From NCBI RefSeq assembly GCF_025602895.1, contig NW_026516211.1, positions 248,001 to 312,000 on the forward strand: a DNA stretch of 64,000 nt, written 5' to 3'. The DNA comes from Polychytrium aggregatum. Its lineage: Eukaryota; Chytridiomycota; Chytridiomycetes; Polychytriales. Shown here one piece after another: positions 1,447-37,898 of the stretch (its first letter is position 1; the number at the start of each line of letters is the position of its first letter). The notes beneath the pieces are model-generated. The model was given only the letters and a program-made list of their open reading frames with translations. It was not told the DNA's origin and did no database searches. The translations under genes were made by a program, and so were the position numbers.

Positions 1447-2624
1447 ATGCACTACAATGGTGGCGCTCTGATCGCCATGGTCGGAAAGGACTGTGTCGCC
1501 ATCGCAACCGATCGTCGATTTGGTATCCAGGCCATGACACTGGCGACGGACTTCCCGAAAGTCTTCACCGTCAACGATCATGTCATGTTTGGCTTGGCCG
1601 GACTGGCCACCGACGTTCAGACAATGTAAGCGACCCGGCACGTCTCGGGCAATCGACTCCGAGTCTGCAACGGCGCAGGCTTGGAATGGATGCTCGTTCA
1701 TCCGATGGCTGGCTTGCGTCCCTTCGCTCGGCGCACCGAGCCGTTGAAGAGCATCAAACGACCGAACCGAACGCAGATGGGCTACCAGCGGCATATCCCC
1801 TGGATTTCCTCTTGTGCATGCCGCCAGGGATATTGTCTGCTCCGAGGGCGACTGGTGCACCAGTGACAACATGGAGTCATGCGATTTGGAGCAGCCATCG
1901 GAACGACCCAAGAGCATGCGGGTTTGCTATCCGCCTGATCGTGGTGGATCGGTATCTCACCAGTACTTTTGCGCGATCAACGCAGGCATGAGAAGCTCCG
2001 ATTCCGAACCAACCTATACAAGCTTCGCGAAGAGCGCGATATCTCACCAAAGACTTTCGCGCACCTGGTTTCATCAACCCTTTACGAACGGCGGTAAGGA
2101 TGCCGAGCGGCAGGAGCCGGCAGCACGGATTTACATGGCCCGCAGCGATGACAGCGCGGCTTGCTCGAAGCTAACTCTCGGCCACTGCTGCGATTATGCC
2201 AGCTTTGGACCTTACTTTGTCGAGCCGGTGATTGCTGGTCTGGAATCGGATGGAACGCCGTTCATTGCTTCAACCGACCTGATCGGATGCATCAACTTTG
2301 CCAAGGATTTTGTGGTCATCGGAACTGCAGGCCCGCAGTTGTATGGTGTCTGTGAAAGCTTCTGGGAGCCCAACCTGGTAAGACTCTGCGCCTGCTGGCG
2401 ACGCTCGGTCCTATCGACGGCTTTGGTCGTGGCCGGCTCATCTGCTTGCTGTGGATCTAATGGCCCGCGCCTTGTTTCAGGAACCCGAGGCTCTGTTCGA
2501 GGTCATCTCGCAGGCACTGCTGAACGCTGTCGACCGCGATGCCATCAGCGGTTGGGGAGCCGATGTATATATCCTCACGAAGGACCAGGTCATCAAGAGA
2601 ACCCTGAAGGGCCGCATGGACTAA
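1447..2624 (+). CDS. PSMB3: 20S proteasome subunit beta type-3
   Basis: Four exons: 1447-1625, 1986-2093, 2203-2377 and 2481-2624. Phases close across all junctions and give 201 residues, near the family norm of about 205. The N-terminus [16 protein letters not shown] and the following [12 protein letters not shown] are hallmarks of beta-3 (yeast Pup3). The later exons carry [27 protein letters not shown] and [15 protein letters not shown], all in the expected order. Beta-3 is a structural, non-catalytic member of the beta ring: there is no propeptide ending in Gly-Thr. It acts in the nucleus and cytoplasm in ubiquitin-dependent protein degradation. The start at 1447 is chosen because NGG follows closely, as in other beta-3 proteins; a tiny upstream exon cannot be excluded. 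Confidence 0.95.
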
Positions 2625-3014
2625 CGCGGGACATGCGCGGATGTCTCGATCGTGTCTGGGTCGTCTTGACTGCGAATACACAGTGTTCACGACGGAGATG
2701 TCCTGCTTTTGATGGGATTGGCTTCTGTGGATCCTGGGTGCGAGCATGTCCGTCTGAGAACCCAGGCGCGACCACGTGCAGCCAAACCGGGAGTGCCCGA
2801 GCGATCCCCGCTTTGCGCGGCTCGATCCGGATGCAGTGTGCGCATATGAACTTTTAATATGCGGGAATTGTCCTGGTGCCCGCAAAGGCAAACGGCGTTT
2901 TTGCGATCCGCGCGGCGACACTGCCTGCTGGACCATCTCCAGGCTTGCTCCTCTGCTCTCCTCCCTCGCCCGTCCGTCTGCATCCAGGAGAACACTCTCG
3001 ATCGAGCCAGCGCC
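2625..3014. other. intergenic stretch
   Basis: Region between two same-strand genes. Frames found here on both strands are low-complexity Arg/Ser/Pro-rich and have no support. It probably holds the PSMB3 3' end and the NDUFV2 promoter; no TATA box or other clear signal was seen. Confidence 0.45.
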
Positions 3015-12018: not shown

Positions 12019-15000
12019 ATGGTTCAAGAGCCCTCTTCGCCTCCACCTGATCTGCTGGCATGGCTGTCGGACCAGCTCGTCCAGGATCCGTCCCTGTCGC
12101 CGCTGCTGCGCAATATCCTGCTCCGAGAAGCCTCCCTCATCCATGCCTCGAATGCGACAACTCCCATGGACGTTGACGGTTTGGATCCGCAGGAGCCTCC
12201 GCCGCCTTCGGGCGAAGAGACTCCAGGCATTCAGCCGGTCGATACTCCCTGGCACAGCTACCCGTGCTCCCCCGGTAGCATGTGCTGCCCATCCTCGCCG
12301 TCCCTCAACTACAACTCGCTGCTCTTTCGGACCCATGACTCCACCATCCATAACCCGCTGCTCAAGCTCATTGCACGGGTGCGGCTCCAACACAATACTG
12401 TCCAGAGGGACCCTGCATCTCCGCCATTCGTACCGTCGGCGAGCCCGGACGGTAGCGATCCCATGGATATTGCCTTCGACGGCCGGGGTCCGAGCCCTGC
12501 GTCGTCGACCCCGTCATCGCTCATGTCCATGGAGATCCTGGGCTTCCAGCAGGTACTCGCTCTGCACACGCTCGACTGTTGGTCATGAGGGCATACCGTC
12601 CCGATGTGCTGCTCGTCTGCACTATGGTACAGCCCAAGCCGAATCTATTGCTGACCCAAGCCATGCGTTCTTGCACTCCCGGTCGACCACAGGCTTTCCC
12701 TCCGGACGTTCTCATCCTGATCTTCCAGAACCTCGATGTCCCCACGTTCCTCCGTTGCCAGCAGGTCTGCCGGCACTGGTATCTGCTTTCCCATCAACTC
12801 GAAAATGCCTTTTGGCCGCACTTTGTCCGCCGCGACTTTGCCCTTTCGCAGCCTCCCGAGCCCTACAGCACTGTCAAGGACTACTACATATCGCAACAGA
12901 ACCTTCGGACCGGAAAGTGCCAGTACTATAACGTCAAGCAGCGGTCGTTTGCGCTCGACGGGACTGCCGCAGAGCAGCTATTCCTGCCGCTCTCTGGCGG
13001 TGACGACCAATCAAGCGAGTCCAACGAGTCGATCGGCTCCATAATCGAAGACGCCAGCTCCACCCCGTTCCAGACGCCCCCGCAGGACCTCTCGCCACCC
13101 TCTCGCCCCGATTCGGCCTTTGCCGAGTCGTCGCCCATGACCCCCGCCCCAGAGCTGGCGCAGGCTTCGCGATCCTACCTGTTTGCATGGCCCCTTTACC
13201 CGTACTATGCGTACCAGGTCGCGCTCGATCACAATCGCCTGTGCTGGATCAACTCCTCGACCAAGCGCGTGTACATGGAGTACCTGGACTCGGCGCCTCC
13301 GCCCTCGAACCGCCCGCGGCCTCCAAAGTCCGTCCAAGTGTCGAGTCTATCCGGCCAGGAGCAGCTCATGTTTGAGATCCGGTCGTGTGGCAACCTGATG
13401 GAGTTTGTCGGCCACACCCAAGCCGTGGCCCTGCTCCTTACCAACGGCGAGGGGCTCTTGTACATGTTTGACGATGCCTCGTACATCAGCATCTGGGATC
13501 TGGATCGCTTGGAGCTCCTCCAGCTGATCGATGCCACAACAGAAGACATCAGCAGCATGAACGTCTACAAGCGCAAGCTCGTGATCGGCGGCCGGCACGG
13601 GCGAGTGACCGTCCGCGACGCCGACTCGGGCCAGATCGAGCGCGTGCTGACCATCCCTGAATCGTACTTGGCCGACCAGGTCTTTGGCGTGCAGTCGCAG
13701 TTCATGAACGTCGCCATCTGGGAGGACAAGGTTGTGTACGGGCTCTACGACCAAACTTACTACCTGCACGACATCAAGACGGGCGAGCTCCTGCACACGT
13801 TCCGCTGCGATCTGGTCGTTCCCGAGCTGCGTGTGCCTTGTCTGGATGACGCTCAGTGCGAGTCGCTGTATACCCAACTCACGCGCAAACGGCTGCAGCC
13901 CTCGGGCGCATCCGCGGGACGATCGAGCCTGGCCCACCAGCCAAGCATCGACGGCGCCGCCGAGAGCCCCGACCAGGACGATGCTCTGGCTATATCGGAG
14001 GAGCAGATGCTTGACTCTGTCTTTGAGCCAAATCCCCTCGCCGAACAACCCATGGCCGACCAAGTTACGACCGAGCAAGTCATGACCGAGCAAGTCATGA
14101 CCGAGAACACCGGCGCAGAGCCCGAAGCCAGCGCCCTCGCGAGCACGGCTCCAACCCAGCCGCTTGTTGCAGATGCGCCTGCTCTCGAGGCTGACTGCAC
14201 ATGTCAATTCTGCAGCCAGCAGCTCGAGTACTGGGAGAGCCGCAGCTGGCCGGCCCTGGCTGTAGCCATCCGGAGCCTCCCCGAAAACCTCTTCACCAAG
14301 ACCAAGGTGTCTCTCGCGGCCCTGGACCAAAAGATCCTCGAGTGCATGCAAGAGGGCCTCGACTTTGACGACATCGAAGCCGACATCGAGAACACAAAGA
14401 AGATCATCCTGTCGGGCCAGCACATGTTCAGCTACCTGTACTGGCGGCTGTCTAGAATCGAGGATCTCGGCCAGTACATTGCACAGTGCCCGCAGCCGCT
14501 GTCGACGCCATCACGGCCAGTCTTACAGCCGTGCGTTACCTGGATCGAGGAAACCAAGTCGCGGATTCTGTCCATCCTGACGGTGCTGAAAGCCTACAAT
14601 CTATGCATCGATGTTGCACACAAGAATCTGGAGCTGACTGGCGGCGGCAGCCATCTGCGCGGCCCCATGACGCTGGTCATGAACAGCCATGTGATCCTCA
14701 CGAACGGCATCCTCTTTGAGGAGTTTTTCGTCTGGGACTCGCGGACGGGACAGCAGCTCTTCAAGATGTGCGATTCCGACGGCGGCGACCATCCACCCTA
14801 TGCCCTCAGCGAGCTGCATTTCATGGAGCTCAACCGCGACAACACCATGGCCTTTGGAAGCACGGCGTCGCCCGAGCACGAAGAGGCCGATGGCGAAAGC
14901 GAGGTCGGTTCGCTTGTCTGTCTCGATTTTCGGGCCGGCTCGCGGCGAGGGAACCGCCGGGTTGAGCGGCGAGTCACCAGCTTTGTCCCGGGCGACGGAC

Positions 15001-15047
15001 ACCGACACCAGATCGAGTACTTTTTATGTCTGGGTGAGCCGGCCTAA
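12019..15047 (+). CDS. F-box protein with a beta-propeller-like middle
   Basis: Exon 1 (12019-12552) and exon 2 (12693-15047) join in phase 0 to give 962 residues. Exon 1 encodes a disordered Ser/Pro/Asp-rich tail. An F-box follows at about residues 179-220 (PPDVLILIFQNLD, then FLRCQQVCRHWYLLS), the Skp1-binding module of SCF ubiquitin ligases. Further on, LLYMFDDASYISIWDLDRL and VIGGRHGRVTVRDADSG look like WD-type blades. A tandem TEQVM repeat and a Cys motif (CTCQFC) follow, then a helical region and a second sheet-rich part at the C-terminus. Expected role: substrate receptor that brings a phosphoprotein to an SCF ligase; the substrate cannot be told. I do not recognise a specific orthologue. 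Confidence 0.85.
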
Positions 15048-31000: not shown

Positions 31001-32124
31001 GCGTATCCGACACCGCCCCCGCCCCCGCCTCCTCCATATACACCTTGCTCGGCTGTGCTTTTCTGTACATTACCCATCATCGCCGCGGCCTACCTGCTCC
31101 CTTCCTTCCTTGCCTCCACGTTCGGAGCCAAACTAAGCAAAAAAAAAAAGCAAATTAATAGCATCCTTCTCCCGACACTACTCTCATCATTTGCCAAGCT
31201 CAGTTGCTGCCCGATCCTTGATCCTCAGCACTTCTCCCTCCTCGCCCGCACTTGCGATATCCAACCAGCAAAGCCTCCTCGACTCTGTCCAGCATTCTCC
31301 TCCGTTTTCGCCCCGGATCCTTTGACCCTTGGACAATTCTCCCTCCTTTCACACTTCATTCGTTCGTTCATTCATTCGTTCACTCGTTCATTCATTCATT
31401 CATTCATTCGTTCATTCGTTTCATTCGTTCGTTCATTCGTTCGTTCATTCGTTCATTCGTTTCATTCGTTCGTTCATTCGTTCGTTCATTCGTTCATTCG
31501 TTTCATTCGTTCGTTCATTCGTTCGTTCACTCGTTCGTTCGATTGTATTTTTCGGCGTTTCTCTGTTTGCATTCGTCGGTGACGGAAATACACTCAAGTT
31601 ACGCATGGAGTGGCGACTAGCTGTATCTGTGTGCTGTGCGGGATATTCGCCGCTGTGCATGCTCGCTGTTGTCCATGCCCGCCGCTGCCAGCAGCATTCA
31701 TGCAGTTGGCGCAGGCCAAATCGGATCGACACGAAGCGATCTCGCCAGGCTGGACACGCTGTGGCGCAAGGCAAGTGTCGCTCACATGACCGCGATGGCA
31801 TGCCCCATTTTGATCGGCCTTTGGCAACCAGATCCGATCTCCATCCCGCCGCCCTCGTCCTTCCAGGCCCTCCTCCAGTCGCACTCGGGCTCCCTCGACA
31901 GCTTTCGTGTGCTCTGTCCTGGTTCAAGCCGAACACAGCCAACCTCCTCTTGCTCCATCATGGCACTCGCCCTCGACAAGAAGCGAATTCCTGTAATGAA
32001 CAATCTGCACAACTGACCATGCACACCCACGACGAAAGCTGATTCTGGCAAACAATTGCTTTCTCATCACGGAATCGTATTCTATCTTTCCCCCCCCCCA
32101 CATTTATTCTTGGACAATTCACGG
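31001..32124. other. intergenic stretch dominated by a tetranucleotide array
   Basis: Contains an A run with AATTAATAG near 31145 (likely 3' processing region of the arrestin-like gene), the TTCATTCG array (listed separately) and a long tail without coding evidence up to the MTR3 start. Confidence 0.55.
31357..31545. repeat. (TTCG/TTCA)n tetranucleotide array
   Basis: About 190 bases of alternating TTCATTCG and TTCGTTCA units, with a higher-order period created by regularly placed CGTTTCATTCG joints. Translates in all three frames as Phe/Val/His/Ser/Arg repeats, giving false open frames. Confidence 0.92.
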
Positions 32125-34361: not shown

Positions 34362-37300
34362 ATGCTCGGAGAACATAGTGCCGACGTCCAGCCGCCTGCG
34401 TCCGAAGCAAAGCTCTACGACTATTTCCTATCCTACCGTGTGAGCACCGAGAGCCAAACGGCCAGGGACCTCAAGGAGCGCCTGGTGTCGATTGCCCTGC
34501 GGCGCAATCGCAAGACCCTGTCGGTGTTTTTTGATGTCGACTCTCTCGTCGACGGCCGTGATTGGCGAGATGGCTTCTTGAACGCCTTGCCGAAAACGTC
34601 GGTGGCCATCCTGCTCGTCAGCAAGGCCTCGATCGACATTGCCCTGCAGAAGGCCCTCAAAGGCGAGGAAGACAACGTCGAGCTCGAAATCAGGACCGCC
34701 CTGGATCGCAAGGATGCCTGCAATGACCTTTTCGTCTTGCCGCTGTGCATTGCAACCTTGGGGGATGTGGGTATCTGGTCTCCCGGGAGTGCTGGGACGG
34801 CCGGCGGCTTCCCCTCGAAGGCAGACCGATGTTCCGATGCGCATCAACTCACACTCACCCACACTCACTCACACTTACTCACACTCACTCACACTCGCTC
34901 ACACTCGCTCTTGCAGGGTGTCTACACCGACTTCAAGCCGTACACGGTGTCCTTTCCCAGCGACCCCAAGTTTGCCACGCTCAAGCAGACCATCGGCCGC
35001 ATGAACCAGATCCAGATGTTCGGCTTCCGCCCCGACCAGCCTCACAAACGCCTCTACCGGATCCTGAGTCTTATCAGTCCAGTCGACGTCGCCGCCGCTA
35101 CCGTGCAAAAGCTCAGCCTGGAGCTTGCCTCCAACCCGCGGTACATGGGCCATGTTGAACACCTCGACTCGCTCCTCAGACAGGTTACCCTGACTGGTCG
35201 TGCCGTCATCTCCGGCATGGGCGGTATGGGCAAGTCTGTCCTGGCCCGCCAGTTCCTTCAGTTCATGATGGGAACCCTCACCGTCAGCAACGACAGCGAG
35301 CTCGGCAGCTTCAAGCTCGAGACCATCGGCGTCAAGCCCCAATATAGCCACGTCTACTGGATCAACTGTTCGACCGAGTCGTCAGTCCTCGACAGCTTCG
35401 TCGACATCTTCCCCAACATCCAGCCTGACGAGGTCAAGCGCCATGCGTCCCACTTCCTCGCCGAAAGCCGAAACTACCTTCTGATTCTCGACAATGTCGA
35501 TGACATTGCGGTCGCAGATGCTGCATTCGAGTATTCAAAGTCCCACGGCTTTGGTGGCGATGTGGTTGTAACGACTCGGTTGCCGTCCCTGCCGGCGGGC
35601 CCTCTGCTAACCTCGCTGCGAGCCAGACTGCACAGTTTCCAGCAGGACCCGCTGCGTCTCGGGTCGTGGGAGAACCAGACGACGTTCGACTACATTGTCA
35701 CGACATCGCCCATGATATCCCGGAAGGTCTCCTCGGAAGGCTCCCGCGACAAACTCAAGAAGATTGTGGACCGTATCGACGGATATCCGCTGGTCATCCA
35801 GACTTTCACGGCGTTTGTCGAGTACAACGACCTTCCGATCGACGAGATCGGTGCGCAGTTTGCTGAGGCACTTGGGAGGCAGGACGACAATGGCGACGAC
35901 GAAACCCGCTCGTCGCTCAAGGTGATTGTCGATCTGTCCATGAATACTCTGCTAAAGAAAGGCGACGAGGGCACAGATGCGTGCCGGCTCTTTGGAGCGA
36001 TCAGCCTGCTGGCCCCGGATGACATTCCGTACGAACTGATCAAAGTGATCGGACAGAAGATGCAGCTTTCAACCGACGGTAAGTTGCTTGCACGATGTTG
36101 GAGAGGGGGGGGGAGAATCCGAGGAGCAAGTCGCAGACCAGGCGATTCAGGCAAGTGAGTATGTGCGTTGAAGGCACGAATGAGCTGCTGCTGAATCTTT
36201 CTCGGTGCAGTCGCCCGGCTTGTCAAGGTCTTGTCCCAAAGTGGTCTCATTCAGAGCGGTACCAACGACAGCTACAACACACATTCGCTGACGCAGAGGG
36301 TTGCCCATGAGTTTGTCGTGGCTCGCGACCAGCTCGGCGCCAAGGCCGCCGAGAGCGCCGCCAGCGAAGCGCTCCTCGAGCTCGTCAAGATTCCCTGCGA
36401 CCAAAAATCATTTGCCTTTGGCCGCCATCTCGAGTCCTTTATGAACAAAACTGTCCCCAGCCCATACACCAACGAAATCCACTCAAGCATCGAAATGCGG
36501 GTTGCAACGCTTGCCCAGGAGCGAGGGCTCATCTCCAAGTCACTTGCCATGTTCCAGAGCTGCCTTGCCAAGTCAACTGCGTTCTGGAACAGCCAAGTCA
36601 ACAAACAGAGCTCGAGCGCTCTCAGCTGGATTGGAGAGTCGCATCGCAAGCTAGCGCAATTGGACGAGGCCGAAGAGCATCTCCAGAGATCGTTTGCGAT
36701 TCTGCAGACCCTGAACATGGCATCAACCAGCATCGAGGCGGTGCGGACCCTCTACCGCATGGGCCTCACGGCCTTTGACCGTGGCCAGCTCGAGAAGGCT
36801 CTCCAGTATTACCGGCAGTCGCGCGAGATTCTCATCGATGTGCTCAAGATCAACGAGGGCACAGATGCCGCCAGGATCCTGCTCGCGATGGGATCCGTGG
36901 CCGGAAAGCAGAGCAAGTACGAACAGGCTCTTCGCCACTATCACGATGCCCTTGACATCTATGTCAAGACCTTTGGCGGCCGCGAGCACCCCCACGTTGC
37001 CTCCACCATCAGCAACATTGCCGTCGTGCTTGCCAGCCAGGGCAAGTTCGACGAGTCCATCAGACACTATGACGAAGCCATCGATATATTTGTGCGAGTT
37101 TTTGGCACCCGCGAGCACTATCTCGTTGCCCTCACCCTCAACAACATGGGCACGGCCAAGCGCAGCCAGGGTCGCCTCGAGGACGCACAGCGGTGCTACC
37201 AGGAGGCGCTTGAGATCCGGCTCAGGGTCTTTGGAACCCGCGATCATTCGTCGATTGCGGCGTCGTTCAACAATCTGGGGCTCATCGCCCGTGACCAGAA

Positions 37301-37898
37301 ACGGCTCCCGGAAGCCAACGAGTTCTATCAAAAGTCGATCGACATTTACACCAAGGTCTTTGGGACGCGGGTGCACCCTTCCATTGCCACGCTGCTCATT
37401 GGCATGGGCAACATCGCCGTCGATCAGGGCCGGTTCGAAGACGCCCTGAGCCACTACAGCGAATCCCTCGAGATATCCACCCGGATCTATGGCACACGCA
37501 ACCATCCCGAGGTTGCCTCGACGCTCAACAACGTGGCCAGTCTTGCGTATTCCAGGGGCCAGTATGACAAGGCAGCCGCGATATACGAAGAGTCTCTTGC
37601 GATTCGCCGCCAGGTGTACAGGACGGACGACCATCCAGACATTGCCCAGGCCATATACAATCTCGGGAACGTGGCCTATGCCCAGACTCGGTACCGAGAC
37701 GCTCTGGAGCACTACCAAATGGCCCTGTCGATCCGTCAGCGCGTCTACGGTGATCCGACACACCCGGAAATTCGGGACTCTGTCAACATGATCGCGCAGG
37801 TGCAGGATATTCTCATGAAGCTGCCGAACCAGCAGGGGAAAGGCTCGGGCAAATCGGCCCCCAGCTCGACCCGACTGGACCAGTGCCGCAACATGTAG
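34362..37898 (+). CDS. TIR / NB-ARC (STAND NTPase) / TPR receptor-like protein
   Basis: Exons 34362-34766, 34917-36078 and 36211-37898; phases close, 1084 residues. TIR domain at about 15-160: YDYFLSYRVS, then LSVFFDVDSLVDGRDW, AILLVSKAS and VELEIRTAL. Glu109 in the last motif lines up with the catalytic Glu of NADase TIRs such as SARM1 (HKEIVTAL). NB-ARC at about 220-520: P-loop GMGGMGKS (235-242), Walker B LLILDNVDD (323-331), sensor TTR (354-356), GYPL (424-427), then a winged-helix part with THSLTQ near residue 546. About nine 42-residue TPRs fill 655-1055; units 3-9 share a FGTR-x-HP joint, as in kinesin-light-chain TPRs. The architecture is that of NLR-type immune receptors: TPRs sense or autoinhibit, the NTPase oligomerises, the TIR acts on NAD or signals. 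The ligand is unknown. A TIR effector end is uncommon for fungal NLRs, where HET, HeLo or lipase domains prevail. Confidence 0.88.
34855..34916 (+). repeat. ACACTCACT-type repeat within the first TIR-gene intron
   Basis: A run of ACTCACAC units extends up to the acceptor (TTGCAG at 34911-34916). The 150-base intron that holds it has no in-frame stop and keeps the frame. Confidence 0.8.

Follow-up and report, generated by a model that had tools for sequence, protein, structure and literature searches.

The 64,000-nucleotide stretch of the Polychytrium aggregatum genome analysed here (contig NW_026516211.1, positions 248,001 to 312,000; below, the window) contains, at window positions 34362-37898 (+), a gene of three exons with a spliced product of 1084 amino acids. 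The product consists of a predicted N-terminal TIR domain, an NB-ARC domain and an array of TPR units. All features of the gene lie on the + strand. Exon 1 (34362..34766), defined by the open reading frame, the splice sites and the alignment of paralogues, encodes the N-terminus and the larger part of the TIR domain. Exon 2 (34917..36078; Pfam and the splice model) encodes the end of the TIR domain, a linker and the NB-ARC domain. Exon 3 (36211..37898; reading frame, Pfam and the splice model) encodes a winged-helix region with THSLTQ, recognised by eye, the TPR array and the stop codon. The G+C content at codon positions 1, 2 and 3 is 0.59, 0.40 and 0.75.

Intron 1 (34767..34916, 150 bp, GTGGGT..CAG), which carries a simple repeat of the CACACTCACT type, splits the TIR domain and has no in-frame stop codon. 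This stretch is missing from all 12 paralogues aligned, and a few other members of the family are also interrupted there. Most of the insert that it would encode has a per-residue model confidence (pLDDT, AlphaFold2) below 50 when the unspliced translation is modelled. A script located the junction of intron 2 (36079..36210, 132 bp, GTAAGT..CAG), with donor G/GTRAGT and acceptor CAG/T in the same phase, not only in the window gene but also in 18 of the 22 relatives examined; it did not find the splice pair in the other four (L045, L061, L062, L067).

The NB-ARC domain contains the P-loop GMGGMGKS (35214..35237), the Walker B motif LLILDNVDD (35478..35504), TTR (35571..35579) and GYPL (35781..35792), all read from the translation. 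We take TTR to be the RNBS-B/sensor 1 motif and GYPL to be the GxP motif. The Pfam NB-ARC model scores 30.7 bits, above the cut-off of 23.5; exon 2 alone had no match in PDB at E 0.1. In exon 3, TPR_12 scores 249.8 bits and nine stretches match TPR_1, and the Pfam model of the nephrocystin-3 TPR scores 120.9 bits against a cut-off of 100. A unit scan finds seven consecutive units of 43 amino acids, with a period of 129 nucleotides, at 36843..37745. Their average identity is 35%, and at the DNA level no pair exceeds 57%. Re-derivation of the gene coordinates gave the positions proposed in the initial annotation, and its description of a complete NB-ARC domain followed by TPRs agrees with these Pfam matches.

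The TIR domain is placed at 34416..35021 by the core strands and helices of an AlphaFold2 model, by Foldseek and by profile search of PDB. The model was computed from an alignment of paralogous TIRs, the query being the window translation including the intron-coded stretch. Its mean pLDDT is 76.7 and its predicted template-modelling score (pTM) is 0.71; ten-residue blocks have pLDDT 87-96 across residues 31-60, 71-130 and 191-220, whereas most of 139-185 is below 50. A flavodoxin-like core is modelled, with strands 19-24, 55-57, 79-87 and 124-132 and helices 28-49, 65-78, 105-119 and 202-220. The candidate catalytic residue Glu109 (codon at 34686..34688) sits within the helix 105-119, in the alpha-C position expected of an NADase TIR. 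Foldseek returned 827 matches at E <= 10. Among the best 50 of these, ranks 1-45 are all TIR-containing or SEFIR structures, including SARM1, TIR-1, RUN1, L6/L7, AbTir, SPARTA and TIR-STING, and the first other protein has rank 46. A profile of 20 diverged paralogous TIRs, 23-61% identical to that of the window gene, was compared with PDB: 19 SARM1/TIR-1 sequences precede every other chain (best E 1.1e-05), and the Glu of the family is aligned opposite the Glu of the SARM1 motif DWVHKEI (within DWVHKEIVTAL). The TIR fold and the catalytic register of Glu109, both proposed beforehand, thus agree with the model and with the profile. PADLOC found weak short-Argonaute TIR matches for the frame of exons 1-2 (best E 2.9e-05) and generic TPR matches for exon 3; it found no match for the sibling L035.

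A number of results weigh against reading the gene as a TIR receptor. The TIR_2 match of the window protein scores 19.9 bits, below the Pfam cut-off of 28, and of the Pfam check suggested initially the NB-ARC and TPR_12 parts stood while the TIR_2 part did not. At E <= 0.01 just 12 of the 20 paralogous TIRs match TIR_2, and the sibling L035 matched no Pfam TIR model at E 0.001. In a single-sequence phmmer search of PDB neither the top match, a tRNA methyltransferase (E 0.15), nor the next one, SARM1 (E 0.49), was significant. Foldseek gave E <= 0.001 in just one of the 827 matches, and query TM-scores over the best 50 are 0.23-0.39; the 50-residue intron-coded insert probably lowers these scores. 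The BB-loop block 61-70 is the weakest part of the modelled core (pLDDT 71). The window gene has VDGRDWRDGF (DWRDGF) in the BB-loop region, while a large amplified clade of the family has NNPSDPP-type residues there. The Trp of SARM1 WVHKE is replaced by Asn in the window gene. Because of the fold and profile evidence we call the domain a TIR despite the missed Pfam cut-off, and consider the Pfam score a matter of detection threshold.

The initial annotation described a single gene; a paralogous family had gone unnoticed. The assembly comprises 64.7 Mb in 418 contigs. A search with the N-terminal 595 residues of the window gene's product yielded at least 94 stretches (74 of 251 candidates scored), and a search with a sibling TIR produced 86 stretches (110 of 110 candidates scored). 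In the latter, 78 related TIR loci were counted, and approximately 51 were left once near-identical contig copies had been merged. Pfam reveals little of this family. The NB-ARC model found six places in the genome, and the window gene is not among them though its protein passes the cut-off. TIR_2 found 27 places, nine of them above the cut-off, and of these nine only the locus C46:286122 is also in the family list; the TIRs of the family are nearly invisible to TIR_2 in a six-frame search. Further TIR_2 reading frames of other types were observed at L007, L008, L010, L013, L014, L017, L020, L026, L027, L029, L031 and L033, two of which (L020 and L029) contain the motif DNVLLEWETAL.

Six pairs of loci are 98.3-100% identical over the whole compared length including the flanks, and three further pairs are 99.1-99.8% identical. 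Hence, the assembly is partly redundant, and one could suppose that the family size is inflated and the gene belongs to a modest set. Five loci on five contigs, L066 among them, share one TIR score, being situated in small contigs or close to the start of a contig, and many contigs duplicate one another. Besides, L081, L083 and L084 were counted separately though they are 98% identical over the gene, to which the comparison was restricted, so that the true number of loci may be slightly lower. However, about 51 loci are left after merging, and the NB-ARC tree (FastTree, 50 of 51 sequences; L075, with a match below 250 residues, was dropped) has many deep branches. We regard a merely inflated family as very improbable. 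In this tree 20 of the 50 sequences form one short-branched clade, and the window gene groups with L045, L050 and L051 on an older branch (local support 0.997).

Several observations concern the arrangement of the loci. L088 and L089 (C168:468060-470150 and 474090-476180) lie in opposite orientation on one contig and are 100% identical over 1691 bases; both places are found again on C362. Divergently upstream of a family member there is a reading frame for a protein kinase (L064:3-752 (-), Pfam), and L066 has a matching part, seen by eye, which suggests a duplicated block. Subtelomeric placement was considered and is not supported: several members lie approximately 5-25 kb from contig starts, yet no telomere-like tandem run was seen in the first 500 bases of six contigs, other repeats deeper in not being sought, and the whole assembly lacks TTAGGG x4. 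The shared contig starts look like redundant contigs.

The column of Glu109 was examined in 54 loci, from which most near-identical copies were excluded and which include a few non-family TIR loci. It contains Glu in 49 loci, Gln in one and Leu in one, and is uncovered in three, that is, Glu is present in 49 of the 51 covering loci. An alternative is that the TIR is a non-catalytic scaffold, recruiting a partner through homotypic contact in the manner of TLR adaptors. Non-catalytic TIRs are common in animals; the BB loop is altered in the most amplified clade, and the Trp beside the Glu is missing. However, the Glu is retained although the diverged set shares no more than 23-61% identity with the TIR of the window gene, and the profile search points to the NADase SARM1 rather than to TLR or MyD88. 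This alternative thus seems unlikely.

The NB-ARC motifs are intact in nearly all loci. The strict P-loop is present in 47 of 50 loci, the exceptions being L080 (GAEGDEHS), L002 (first Gly replaced by Ala) and L016 (uncovered); TTR is present in 44 of 50 and GYPL in 38 of 50. The ratio of nonsynonymous to synonymous variation (pN/pS) is low, 0.41 in the TIR and 0.36 in the NB-ARC domain (153 pairs from 18 sibling genes). The loci with Gln and Leu, L085 and L090, have also lost S-Y-R, yet keep the P-loop Gly-Lys, and conversely L080 has lost the P-loop but kept the TIR Glu. L006 (C46:288541-289599 +) and L067 (C46:285021-286520 -) are arranged head to head, with match starts 2.0 kb apart. One gene of this pair has the TIR Glu and S-Y-R, the other a degenerate TIR and an intact P-loop; the arrangement resembles paired plant NLRs (nucleotide-binding, leucine-rich-repeat-type receptors). 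L053 and L058, which are near-identical copies on different contigs, have no differences in 1500 upstream bases and 24 differences in the TIR-NB-ARC part (positions 1906-2987), many of them common to other members. Judging by the sequences, this may be either gene conversion or a read-polishing artefact. The pattern is not general, as L057 and L059 differ upstream too (29 sites). The TPR array of L066 (C222) is read in shifting frames, and this locus is probably a pseudogene or a sequence error.

The TPR units of siblings likewise measure 43 residues (129 bases) and mostly follow one another in exact phase; in 23 genes, 188 units were found, up to 19 of them in one gene (L065), most arrays having been read to 1.5 kb downstream. 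Identical units occur within one gene in L047, L064 and L066. Variation was analysed in 175 units from 22 genes, the frameshifted L066 being dropped, in pairs with 78-99.5% DNA identity; there were 179 such pairs, 50 of them intragenic. G17 of the 43-residue unit is presumably the canonical TPR Gly8, and this mapping sets the contact positions. At the canonical positions 2, 5, 9, 12 and 13, pN is 0.369 compared to 0.109 elsewhere (permutation p 0.0002, 20,000 random five-position sets). The pN/pS ratio is 0.70 (bootstrap 0.38-1.08) in the contact set and 0.33 (0.25-0.38) elsewhere, the contact set being higher in 99.1% of 1000 gene bootstraps. Positions 2, 5, 9, 12, 13, 33 and 34 were described as the most variable and concave ones in TPRs (Magliery and Regan, PMC1261162; this and the papers below are cited from parts of their texts). 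Two single positions exceed 1 (1.43 and 1.55, as pN over the mean pS, in the set including L066). Positive selection over the whole contact set was considered and rejected given the ratio of 0.70; hence, just elevated variation is claimed.

Taken together, we consider it probable that the window gene encodes an older-branching receptor of the TIR-NB-ARC-TPR type (an NLR, broadly defined) belonging to a lineage-expanded nonself repertoire with TIR NAD+ chemistry. By analogy with plant TIR-NB-ARC-TPR proteins (TNPs) and TIR-type NLRs (TNLs), SARM1 and bacterial NLRs, the TPR array would bind a nonself or stress ligand, and the NB-ARC domain would exchange ADP for ATP and oligomerise. This would bring the TIRs together, and NAD+ would be cleaved via Glu109. 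The outcome may be cell death or a nucleotide signal. Either could shield the thallus, or clonal kin, from viral infection, intracellular parasites or incompatible partners, roles that are indistinguishable here. NAD depletion, cell death and an anti-parasite role, all raised in the initial annotation, are inferences. To be set on the other side are that the contact-set pN/pS is not clearly above 1 and pS is also raised there (0.524 vs 0.334), and that the window gene contributes no pairs to the TPR analysis, its best pair (57%) being under the 78% floor, so that the signal is that of its siblings. Further, apart from a maize protein, the plant TNPs tested (Arabidopsis, barley, Marchantia) failed to trigger cell death consistently (PMC9806590).

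A sub-case that overlaps with the receptor reading is that the catalytic TIR makes a signal, an isomer of cyclic ADP-ribose or another nucleotide, rather than draining NAD+. Plant and bacterial TIRs that have this Glu are known to carry out reactions of this kind (PMC9806590, PMC10197012), but NAD hydrolases of the SARM1 type are the closest relatives with a solved structure; we consider this sub-case possible and rather doubtful. Alternatively, the protein might be a regulator of the STAND class (signal transduction ATPases with numerous domains) that serves ordinary cell functions, such as development, the flagellum or stress, with no nonself role. STAND proteins have many roles, and the match to the nephrocystin-3 TPR model exceeds the Pfam cut-off (120.9 vs 100). 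However, the approximately 51 loci, the duplication of units within arrays, the members in which a domain is dead and the probable pseudogene are traits of a repertoire rather than of housekeeping, and an ordinary regulator seems, if anything, slightly less likely than a scaffold TIR. Nonself recognition is the most likely use of the family.

Tentatively, one can go further and suggest a repertoire of true-TIR NLRs that would resemble plant TNLs in its logic. Dozens of TPR sensors would be diversified by duplication and exchange of units, with mostly enzymatic TIRs, alongside partners with a dead TIR and an intact P-loop (L085, L090, L006) and the reverse case, L080, with a dead P-loop and an intact TIR. 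A dead-TIR gene head to head with an intact one would then be arranged as in sensor-executor pairs. If so, TIR-NLR repertoires could be common among zoosporic fungi and escape notice as their TIRs fall below the Pfam cut-offs; this suggests that profile-based surveys under-count such TIRs. The family also forms a within-genome set for comparing TIR enzymology, the need for ATPase activity and TPR specificity.

The host was proposed beforehand to be a zoosporic fungus, and the genome agrees with this. Zn_clus, a family known from fungi, matched at 27 places, and a radial-spoke model matched eight stretches, six of them on one contig stretch; together, these point to a flagellated fungus. Recent transfer of the gene from bacteria is not supported, as a scan of prokaryotes with the NB-ARC alignment gave two loci at 23-28% identity. 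By eye, neither had a recognisable TIR in the open frame, the method reaching fairly close relatives only. A scan of viral contigs gave three loci at 26-29% identity.

Elsewhere in the window, part of a proteasome subunit gene lies at 1814-2857 (+). An F-box reading frame with a sub-threshold beta-propeller match, possibly encoding an F-box/WD protein, occupies 12579-15047 (+). A tandem array of 23 copies of the 8-base unit TTCATTCG is located at 31355-31541.

The gene had been considered a candidate for an undescribed system. This does not hold, as TIR domains in NLRs of Chytridiomycota (PMC9815663), a small group of fungal TIR NLRs (PMC10197012) and TIR-NB-TPR proteins in bacteria and fungi (PMC9806590) are already in print, and TIRs are reported to occur in fungi (PMC7075850). 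The first two are of the same kind as the window gene, but in the parts of these papers cited here they are single-sentence mentions without a large family. Other sources report zero NLR matches in chytrids, linking NLRs to multicellularity (PMC4986451), or NLR numbers that start at one in Chytridiomycota and Mucoromycota, with none in Blastocladiomycota (PMC12258605). A 2026 preprint lists almost no fungal TIRs, those found being from Rhizoclosmatium globosum (PMC13142454). Chytrids are unmentioned in the part of a TIR evolution paper cited here (PMC9153377), and the NLRs of Mortierellomycota were described as coming from endosymbionts (PMC11291939). The literature searched, most subscription papers lying outside the search, did not describe a large family of this TIR-NB-ARC-TPR type from any zoosporic fungus. 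Thus what seems new here is the size and diversification of the family and its poor visibility to Pfam.

Fungal NLR biology has mainly been built on Dikarya, and approximately fifty TIR-NB-ARC loci in a flagellated fungus would show that amplification of true-TIR receptors occurs in fungi too. The HET-E/HNWD proteins of Podospora likewise form a multigene family with an N-terminal TIR-like effector and internally conserved C-terminal repeats (PMC4986451; fungal cell death review, PMC12881547). However, the family described here has a true TIR rather than HET, and NB-ARC and TPR rather than the NACHT and WD40 of fungal HET NLRs. HET is not among the seven Pfam matches of the exon 1-2 frame; the genome yielded no hit to the HET profile (PF06985), but the controls gave none either.

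The architecture of SARM1 includes ARM and SAM domains, where the window family has NB-ARC and TPR, and the Trp before the Glu is absent from the latter. Still, SARM1 and TIR-1 are the closest solved TIRs by profile, matched before plant TIRs in PDB, with 27-31% identity to the window TIR in Foldseek and the Glu in the same register. The domain order is that of the plant TNP/XTNX proteins, TIR-NB-ARC-TPR, with the Glu and the P-loop also shared, and one maize protein of this type caused cell death in tobacco that depended on both the Glu and the P-loop (PMC9806590). However, plant TNPs are said to be conserved throughout the land plants, whereas the family found here comprises about fifty diverged loci, many of them with near-identical tandem TPR units.

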